64,000 nucleotides of DNA. Source: Streptomyces coeruleorubidus (lineage in GTDB: Bacteria; Actinomycetota; Actinomycetes; Streptomycetales; Streptomycetaceae). Positions 44,899-46,879 of this stretch are shown here, piece by piece. How positions within the stretch are numbered: the stretch's first letter is position 1; every line of letters starts with the position of its first letter. Under the pieces are notes generated by a model. That model did no database searches, was not told the origin of the DNA, and saw only the letters and a list, made by a program, of their open reading frames with translations. A program made the translations under genes and the position numbers. Location of the stretch: the NCBI RefSeq assembly GCF_028885415.1, contig NZ_CP118527.1, forward strand, positions 5,642,001-5,706,000, written 5' to 3'.

Positions 44899-45858
44899 GT
44901 GAGTCGACGGAACGGCGGGGCGGAGTCGGGGGCGAGCACGGCCGCCGTGTTCGGGGAGGTGCTGCGGCATTTCCGCGAGGCGGCGCTGCTCACGCAGGAG
45001 GGTTTGGCGAGGCAGATCCCGTGCGACCGCTCGCACGTGGCGCGGGTGGAGGCGGGAACGAGGGTCCCGCAGGAGAGTTTCGCGAAGAAGTGCGACGAAC
45101 TTCTTGATACGGGTGGGGTGTTGCTGCGGTTGTGGGGGCGGATCGACTGGTATCCGCAGGTGGAGCATCCCGATTGGTTCCGGCGGCGGGCTGAGATGGA
45201 TGAGGTGGCCGTCACCTTGCGGGAGTACCAGGAGCGTGTCATCCCGGGCTTGTTGCAGACGGCGGACTACGCCCGTGCGTTGTCCTCGCGTTATGTGAGC
45301 GGGGTGGAGCTGGAGGAGCGCGTCCGAGCCAGGATGAGCCGACAGCAGCGCTTCCTCACCGATGGCGGTCCGCTGTACATCGTCGTGCTCGACGAGAGCT
45401 GCCTGCGCAACGTGGTCAGTGGTCCGGCTGTCATGCGGGACCAGTGCGCGCACTTGCTGAGCGTCGCGCAGCGCCCCAACATCCGTATCCAGGTCGCGCC
45501 CGCAGGCCCCCTCGAAATCGTCCGCCCCAGTGGCTCCATGTCGCTGATCACGCTGCCCGAAGGGCGCCAGTGGCTCTACTCGGAGTCCCTCAACCGTGGC
45601 CACTTCACCAACGATCCGACCGTCTACGAGCGCTATAACCAGTTCTATGATGTGCTCAGGGCGGACGCCCTGTCAGCTCCCCAGTCCGCCGCTCTGATCC
45701 ACGAGGCGATGGAGAGGTACGAGCACTATGGACCGGAACGAGCTCGGCACGTTGACCTGGGTCAAGAGCAGCTACAGCGACGGCAACGGCGGCAACTGCA
45801 TCGAAATAGCCCCCGATACCCCCGGCGTCGTCCCCATCCGCGACAGCAAAACCCCTGA
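44899..45858 (+). CDS. XRE regulator with DUF5753 domain
   Basis: This 319-residue protein has a helix-turn-helix at residues 15-70 (LTQEGLARQIPCDRSHVARV) and the actinobacterial DUF5753 domain from about 95 to 270 (REYQERVIPGLLQTADYARA, RQQRFLTDGGPLYIVVLDES). Such proteins pair with a downstream DUF397 protein. The related pairs WhiJ and AbaA orf act in development or antibiotic control, and some behave like toxin-antitoxin systems. The reading frame does not stop at the usual place and runs on in Arg/Gln-rich sequence through 131 bases of the DUF397 gene, giving an odd tail of about 43 residues. Confidence 0.88.
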   Translation: MSRRNGGAESGASTAAVFGEVLRHFREAALLTQEGLARQIPCDRSHVARVEAGTRVPQESFAKKCDELLDTGGVLLRLWGRIDWYPQVEHPDWFRRRAEMDEVAVTLREYQERVIPGLLQTADYARALSSRYVSGVELEERVRARMSRQQRFLTDGGPLYIVVLDESCLRNVVSGPAVMRDQCAHLLSVAQRPNIRIQVAPAGPLEIVRPSGSMSLITLPEGRQWLYSESLNRGHFTNDPTVYERYNQFYDVLRADALSAPQSAALIHEAMERYEHYGPERARHVDLGQEQLQRRQRRQLHRNSPRYPRRRPHPRQQNP

Positions 45859-45919
45859 CAGCCCGATCCTGCTCGTCACCCGATCCGCCTGGTCCGCTTT
45901 CCTCGCCGGCGTCTGCTGA
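45728..45919 (+). CDS. DUF397 protein
   Basis: This 63-residue protein has the defining LTWVKSSYSDGNGGNCIEIA, VPIRDSKTPDSP and the C-terminal WSAFLAGV. It is the partner of the XRE-DUF5753 gene, which overlaps it by 131 bases in another frame. DUF397 proteins are thought to be antagonised by, or to work with, their HTH partner; the molecular activity is unknown. Confidence 0.9.
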   Translation: MDRNELGTLTWVKSSYSDGNGGNCIEIAPDTPGVVPIRDSKTPDSPILLVTRSAWSAFLAGVC

Positions 45920-45929
45920 GGGCGCTGAA

Positions 45930-46277
45930 CTACTGCCCGCTCAGCATCTGCAGGATCCGGTTGGCCGCCTCCGCCACCGGCTGGCTCACGGCCCCGACGG
46001 CCGCGGCGATCGCGGCGACAGCCATCAGCGCACGGTGCCGTTCCTCGGGAGGCGCGGCGTCAGCCGACAGCACCGGCAGGGACTCGTCGATGAGCTGCGC
46101 GCTGGGCTGCGGAAGCTGGTCGCGCAACTCGCGTACTCCCTGGAGCAGTTCGGCGATGGCCAGCCGCAGGGTGGGATCCATGGCGTCGCCGGTCGCGCCG
46201 TTCTTCACGATGCCCGTGTTGCCGCTGCCGCCGTGCATGGTGACGTTGTCGCCGTAGTAGTAGTTGTTGCCGCTCAT
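45930..46277 (-). CDS. Small protein with N-terminal Gly/Asn/Tyr motif, partner of DUF6232
   Basis: This 115-residue protein starts with MSGN and the motif NYYYGDNVTMHGGSGNTGI (residues 5-23), followed by a helical region (LRLAIAELLQGVRELRDQLP). A hydrophobic stretch lies near its end (ALMAVAAIAAAVGAVSQPVA). The motif is nearly the same as the C-terminus of the protein encoded just upstream, whose stop codon overlaps this ATG (46274-46277). A short motif at the C-terminus of one protein and the N-terminus of its operon neighbour is the layout known for bacterial amyloid signalling motifs. That reading is inference. Confidence 0.75.
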   Translation of the reverse strand: MSGNNYYYGDNVTMHGGSGNTGIVKNGATGDAMDPTLRLAIAELLQGVRELRDQLPQPSAQLIDESLPVLSADAAPPEERHRALMAVAAIAAAVGAVSQPVAEAANRILQMLSGQ

Positions 46278-46879
46278 GCCGCGATCCCCACGTTGCCGTT
46301 GCCGCCGTACATGTTCACGTTGTCGCCGAAGTAGTAGTTGGTGGGCGAGCTGATGGTGAGACGCTCGACCGTCACATGGAACTCGGTGTCTGGGTTCTCC
46401 AGCGCGCCGGCGACGTAGCCCACGAGCTGGTCCAGATGCTGGGGGTTCCGGCTGGTCACCATCGCGGTGGAGGGGCCGGCCGTCTCGATGGCGAGGACGT
46501 AGTGCGACTGGGCGGTGACGACGGAGAGCATGTCCACGAGGAAGTAGATCAGCGCCGCGCCGGAGCCGAGCCACACGAAGGTGAGGAGCCCGTTGCCCGT
46601 GGACCTGCTCGCGAGGAACGTCACGCTGCCGATGATCGACAGGCCGATGGCCACGGCAAGGGTGATCCCGGTGCGTGCCAGGAAGCGGATGACCGCCTCC
46701 TTGCGCCTCGGGTGGAGGGTGAAGGTGTACACCCGCGCGATGTTCCGCAGCGGGTAGGCCGCGCCGCCGACCCATAACAGCCGCTTGCTGACGCGCAGTT
46801 CGATGTTGGTCATGGCCTGGGGCGGAGTGGCGGGCGGGGGCGGGACGTCCCACTGCCCAGGAGGCTGCTGGGTCTCCAT
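46274..46879 (-). CDS. DUF6232 membrane protein with C-terminal Gly/Asn/Tyr motif (contains TTA codon)
   Basis: This 201-residue protein has a Pro-rich N-terminus, the DUF6232-type IELRVSKRLLWVGGAAYPLR and NIARVYTFTLHP, two transmembrane helices (about 67-90 and 98-120), and a cytoplasmic segment (SHYVLAIETAGPSTAMVTSR). It ends in the motif NYYFGDNVNMYGGNGNVGI (181-199). Leu35 is encoded by TTA (plus-strand taa at 46775-46777), predicting bldA-dependent translation. ATG 46879 follows AGAAGGA. It is translationally coupled to the next gene. The function is unknown. Confidence 0.82.
   Translation of the reverse strand: METQQPPGQWDVPPPPATPPQAMTNIELRVSKRLLWVGGAAYPLRNIARVYTFTLHPRRKEAVIRFLARTGITLAVAIGLSIIGSVTFLASRSTGNGLLTFVWLGSGAALIYFLVDMLSVVTAQSHYVLAIETAGPSTAMVTSRNPQHLDQLVGYVAGALENPDTEFHVTVERLTISSPTNYYFGDNVNMYGGNGNVGIAA

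Follow-up and report, generated by a model that had tools for sequence, protein, structure and literature searches.

In the 64,000-nucleotide window of Streptomyces coeruleorubidus analyzed here (contig NZ_CP118527.1, positions 5,642,001 to 5,706,000), two overlapping genes on the minus strand, which we call A and B, encode proteins that carry the same short Gly/Asn/Tyr motif at facing ends. Judging from sequence comparisons and predicted structures, we put at roughly 55% the probability that A and B form a two-gene module, free of any NOD-like receptor (NLR), whose products meet at the membrane through a homotypic, probably amyloid-type, contact between these motifs. Gene A (46274..46879, minus strand) encodes a 201-residue membrane protein that passes the curated cut-off of the DUF6232 family (PF19744; 95 against 27.4 bits) and is the single match above that cut-off in its own genome. 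Gene B (45930..46277, minus strand) encodes a 115-residue protein, with 42 homologues, that is composed of the N-terminal motif, a variable linker and a predicted four-helix bundle (mean predicted local distance difference test score, pLDDT, 68.6). An earlier note on this DNA had described the genes as coupled by a 4-bp ATGA overlap, and both the reading frames and the sequence bear this out, the TGA of A and the ATG of B sharing positions 46274..46277 (minus strand). The C-terminal copy of the motif, NYYFGDNVNMYGGNGNVGI, occupies residues 181-199 of A (46283..46339, minus strand) and the N-terminal copy, NYYYGDNVTMHGGSGNTGI, residues 5-23 of B (46209..46265, minus strand); they are identical at 14 of 19 positions, where the note had read 14 or more. 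The tandem repeat that it saw spanning the gene boundary is also present at the DNA level, as two stretches of 62 nt (46208-46269 and 46282-46343) that are 85% identical and spaced by 74. Comparing A with B by BLASTP returned the motif stretch (15/22 identical, E 4e-9) and, outside of it, a sole further match of 8 residues with an E of 11, while local alignment of the two proteins scored 89, against a maximum of 54 in 10,000 composition shuffles. Given the 14/19 match, the lack of any other meaningful similarity between the proteins and the outcome of the shuffles, the likeness of the motifs is not due to chance. A 21-column profile of the motif, run against the whole 9.4-Mb genome with E values up to 10, gave two matches, both at this locus.

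The pairing of the two motifs is conserved. We assembled 80 loci, namely the one in the window and 79 obtained by searching species genomes with an alignment of B, and found both motifs, with A directly upstream of B, in 79 of them, a count that combines a pattern scan with direct reading (the pattern missed L051, in which the motifs can be read) and that is biased upward for B, and less so for A, as one of the two search patterns behind the 79 loci was the motif itself. The exception, L068, is cut at a contig end. The earlier note had named conservation in only one of the two proteins as an observation that would speak against its proposal; at the homologous loci the motif is kept in both. 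Among the best 120 of 346 A homologues, 119 fit the pattern of the C-terminal motif and the remaining one is off at one position. In A as in B, none of the other blocks compared is as well conserved as the motif: mean pairwise identity was 0.874 in the motif against 0.574 in residues 24-161 for 50 aligned A proteins, and 0.771 in the motif (residues 5-25), 0.297 in the linker and 0.66 in the helices for 29 aligned B proteins. A natural fusion is found in Streptomyces violaceus (P0009, 175 residues as annotated), in which the second half of A is followed by one motif copy and then by B; this fusion supports a direct link between A and B.

The two copies also co-vary, which answers one of the checks proposed in the earlier note. 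For this analysis we used 109 Streptomyces loci retrieved by a search with the whole of B and without recourse to A tails, a set that may favor B motifs resembling that of the window and that, sharing species with the 79 loci above, is not independent of them. They yielded 97 A-B pairs, in line with the co-occurrence across Streptomyces that the note had suggested examining. The start of B was taken as the first one near the end of A, and on this choice depend the offsets between the genes: the 4-bp overlap (offset -1) occurs in 78 of the 97 pairs, and other offsets in 18, where the motif is still present. Divergence has given rise to several families of the motif, including GDNVxMxGGxGNxGI (the window type), GDxxxQ[FY]GxxNxG, QYGxGSIGKA followed by HSGSGDI, NMRDFYxASGxGxVGR and YNGPVFNQNG, and each pair bears one family at both ends, as illustrated by the MRDFYNASG, YNGPVFNQ, QYGAGSIGKA-HSGSG and GDxxxQ[FY]GxxNxG stretches shared within individual pairs. 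Class labels, which come from patterns of our own making, differed between the two ends in 8 of the 97 pairs, mostly on what by eye is the same motif. We set aside L147, which is truncated, and L146, in which the frame of B breaks off before its domain; for the remaining 95 pairs, the A and B motifs scored 76.9 on average with their own partner and 48.1 with others. Had both copies arisen by an ancient duplication and drifted independently since, A would be expected to resemble the B of a distant locus as much as its own. When partners were shuffled among clade representatives, the observed total was reached in 0 of 20,000 shuffles with 25, 14 or 9 representatives; with 5 it was reached in 164 of 20,000, which is the floor for five items, as the true order itself recurs. 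Moreover, 12 genomes contain more than one pair (26 pairs in total), and in 31 of 32 comparisons within them the higher score went to the own partner.

The match shows no sign of recent gene conversion. Identical residues were encoded by identical codons in 839 of 1,218 cases (0.689) within loci and in 18,134 of 26,370 (0.688) between related loci, and since codon sharing is the same in both, the agreement of the motifs cannot be put down to DNA copied recently; recent gene conversion and a mere DNA repeat were rejected on this basis. The same test bears on the idea that the 62-nt repeat across the overlap is a tandem DNA duplication, or an element acting on RNA or on translational coupling over the gene boundary, with no role for the encoded peptides. 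The position and 85% identity of the repeat are what such an element would offer, but codon choice already contradicts it, conservation is highest in the motif among the protein blocks compared, and the motif persists in the pairs with other gene offsets, so that we regard this explanation as hardly credible.

Within the genomes searched, the motif is exclusive to the pair. A profile of the window type gave 117 matches in 60 of 392 genomes, 61 of them A tails and 56 B N-termini, as assigned by strand, frame and position; a looser check, requiring only a start within the span, agreed for 117 of 117. A profile of the GDxxxQ[FY]G type gave 29 matches in 19 of 295 genomes: 25 lie in known loci, as 13 A tails and 12 B N-termini, and the remaining four (L271, L273 and L287/L288) belong to further A-B pairs. 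We thus reject a third protein carrying either motif in these genomes, these being the two families searched in this way. The earlier note had pointed to motifs associated with NLRs, a connection that did not hold up, as no NLR with the window-type motif was found in the own genome or among the matches in the 392 genomes. Because every profile match falls in A or B, we conclude that in these genomes the two motif types belong to the A-B pair and have no NLR partner. That both copies might be tags read by a third factor, such as a protease or a sorting or localization machinery, would suit a motif that is terminal, exposed and conserved on both proteins. However, the motif was seen on no other protein of the genomes searched, and since pairs of one genome differ in motif from each other while matching internally, a separate reader would be needed for each pair; we consider this very improbable.

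The AlphaFold2 (AF2) model of A (mean pLDDT 76.4) contains a beta-rich domain with two long helices (residues 59-90 and 92-121) inserted into it as a hairpin, which is predicted to be transmembrane and agrees with the two membrane helices of the earlier note. There are eight Lys or Arg in residues 24-60, before the first helix, and one in the turn (89-98), and by the positive-inside rule this distribution suggests that both ends of A face the cytosol. Confidence falls along the tail, with a mean pLDDT of 63 in residues 181-190 and 43 in residues 191-200, and the motif holds two short predicted strands. In the model of B, residues 1-31 have a pLDDT below 50 and are followed by helices at 35-52, 57-71, 77-94 and 96-112. 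Hydrophobicity peaks over the third and fourth helices, where the best 19-residue Kyte-Doolittle mean is 1.85; across 95 B domains this value ranges from 0.37 to 2.25 and is at least 1.6 in 55. B was also considered as a member of DUF5955 (PF19380) and rejected, with 16.6 bits against a cut-off of 27.1 and an hhalign probability of 2%.

In the mechanism that we favor, A would be a membrane protein whose two ends lie in the cytosol and whose C-terminal motif is on display, and B would be a cytosolic protein presenting the same motif ahead of its four-helix bundle. Clustering of A, or a change in its state, could bring the A motifs together to nucleate a cross-beta, amyloid-type assembly, which in turn would template the motif of B and gather B at the membrane. 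There the most likely action of the bundle, with its hydrophobic stretch, would be to disturb the membrane or to control A. A cross-beta contact is favored by the homotypic matching, the co-variation, the insulation of paralogues, the terminal position and the Gly/Asn/Tyr content, which together come close to the marks by which amyloid signaling motifs have been recognized (PMC8086366, PMC7889193, PMC7885112 and PMC12261475), and we count the low model confidence across the motif of both proteins in its favor. Such an assembly would take the form of fibrils, and its role may lie in defense or regulated cell death. A signal running from A to B is the reading we prefer, although the reverse direction is also possible. 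Within the model, the odds are slightly better than even that A is the membrane platform and B the recruited executor: by its hydrophobic helical bundle, the modeled B looks more like an executor, whereas by analogy with known systems, in which the motif is N-terminal in receptors and C-terminal in executors, that part would fall to A. A broader formulation, to which we give somewhat less than an even chance, is that of a membrane-anchored, NLR-free amyloid signaling module of the Streptomycetaceae with an orthogonal motif code, in which paralogous pairs would be insulated by their own matching motifs and the fold copied into the cognate partner only.

The main rival to an amyloid-type assembly is a fixed interface of a non-amyloid kind between the motifs, for instance a small beta-zipper or a shared beta-roll, by which B would be tethered to A constitutively and without templating. 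Such an interface would account for the co-variation, the exclusivity and the A-B fusion with no need for prion behavior, and the two short strands in the modeled motif of A hint in its direction. Nevertheless, the two copies are alike and not complementary, which suits like-on-like stacking, the confidence of the models over the motif is low, and conserved Asn/Gln and Gly are described as common in amyloid-forming motifs (PMC7885112); we hold a fixed interface to be unlikely, at well under even odds. Several observations weigh against the amyloid-type module. A static contact would yield the same co-variation. No NLR (NB-ARC or NACHT), TIR, CHAT or protease domain was detected in A or B by domain search, and Foldseek returned no match for either model at an E of 0.001. 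An A directly upstream is missing for 10 of 107 B matches, and a B for 7 A matches, some of these being fragments or lying at contig ends. The own partner ranked first, alone or tied, for just 10/25, 8/14, 6/9 and 5/5 of the clade representatives, in our view because motifs are similar in many clades. One same-genome comparison (L212 in G305) went in the reverse direction, and codon sharing between distant loci (32,897/51,699, 0.636) is slightly below the within-locus value. Finally, the core tetrad of the RHIM is absent from the window motif. The amyloid reading of the earlier note thus stands in part: the motif is found in both proteins and its copies co-vary, but no NLR carrying it was found in the genomes searched, it lacks that tetrad, and no amyloid-motif model appeared among the Pfam matches of eight proteins at E values up to 10.

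The pair can be compared with systems already described. In the NLR-Bell pairs of the BASS 1-10 families, a short motif at the C-terminus of one protein likewise recurs at the N-terminus of a second, whose gene adjoins or overlaps that of the first, the hosts are multicellular bacteria including actinobacteria, and the partner is an alpha-helical bundle (PMC7889193 and PMC8086366). The A-B loci have the same motif at the facing termini of adjacent products (in 79/80 loci and in the 97 pairs). The partner with the N-terminal motif is here not an NLR but the 115-residue helical B, which has no NB-ARC or NACHT match, and the partner with the C-terminal motif is the DUF6232 membrane protein. The fungal PP pair PNT1/HELLP also combines Gly/Asn-rich terminal motifs in a two-gene cluster, and some pairs related to that of the window contain phi-x-Q-[FY]-G-x-x-N, reminiscent of the PP/RHIM motifs. 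The published core of these is G-phi-Q-phi-G, with the tetrad (V/I)-Q-(V/I/L/C)-G (PMC7885112 and PMC9444067), while Gln is missing from the window motif and the spacing in the related families, with phi-x-Q-[FY]-G, is longer by one residue. In Fusarium oxysporum, the GDQN pattern is common to one N-terminus and another C-terminus encoded under consecutive accessions, and evidence of this same sort led to its acceptance as a bona fide amyloid signaling motif, although that pair consists of a probable NLR and a SesA protein and occurs in a fungus (PMC12261475). Since there is neither an NLR nor the RHIM tetrad, we file A-B under neither BASS nor RHIM; it would work like BASS or PP/RHIM, is on present evidence a member of neither, and is best called a variant of amyloid-type motif signaling. 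In the literature searched, which left most subscription papers outside its scope, no paper names DUF6232 or DUF5955, and among the best matches no title or abstract mentions such a motif pair. A review of the field observes that the catalogue of amyloid motifs was drawn from NLR gene clusters, is biased for that reason, and should be complemented by mining under other criteria (PMC7889193). With no NLR involved, the A-B pair is suited to testing whether bacterial amyloid signaling exists beyond NLR immunity. Moreover, its tens of naturally varied motif pairs, several of them in some genomes and with measurable specificity, make a set for testing who seeds whom.

B-like sequences were found in 89 of the 392 Streptomyces genomes sampled, and named loci also come from Kitasatospora and Streptantibioticus. 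PF19744 occurs in at least 3 of 396 genomes of the phylum, with few candidates scored per genome. The one of these that lies outside Streptomyces, another actinobacterium (G604; L171 and L172), has three DUF6232 members, two of them in tandem, without the motif and without a B gene, so the DUF6232 domain is not bound to the motif pair. Plasmid copies occur in 21 records, with S. clavuligerus accounting for 17 of the 20 listed, and annotated, overlapping A-B pairs with matching motifs are present in both of the records examined, one from S. clavuligerus and one from Streptomyces sp. Alt1. Presence in phage records was rejected, as A had no match in the phage collection. We also rejected a fixed genomic neighborhood: among the 79 loci, of which 71 span more than 10 kb, UbiD was near the pair in 30, a PLDc_N protein in 25 and an XRE-DUF5753 protein in 14. 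This distribution is relevant to a further explanation, that A and B are a toxin-antitoxin or effector-immunity pair in which a membrane-active toxin is neutralized by its partner via the motif. Small overlapping genes, a patchy spread, a variable neighborhood and plasmid copies are all in keeping with it. However, neither A nor B was matched by the PADLOC models, some B genes have no adjoining A, and homotypic motifs are not known as the usual interface between toxin and antitoxin; we consider such a pair improbable.

Some modules have three members, as at L218 (G073) and L223 (G320), where the A-B pair has a further A with a window-type tail close by, giving two DUF6232 proteins and one B. 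At L208, L217, L225 and L248, a B with a good motif has no A directly upstream, and the B of L225 bears an additional C-terminal extension. Decaying copies were seen as well: in L016/L086 (Streptomyces sp. MBT53) a stop splits the frame of A and that of B is open, in L146 (G219) the frame of B is broken just past its start and the neighboring A is open, and L216 is a decayed remnant laid out like the S. violaceus fusion. On the linear 0.7-Mb plasmid pF1D18A of S. clavuligerus, the pair (L290, 5965-6899) is annotated as a DUF6232 family protein and a hypothetical protein. In the window, positions 44899-45919 hold an XRE-family regulator with DUF5753 and then a DUF397 gene, convergent to the A-B pair, and relatives of these two genes lie near A-B in 14 and 13 of the 79 loci, respectively.
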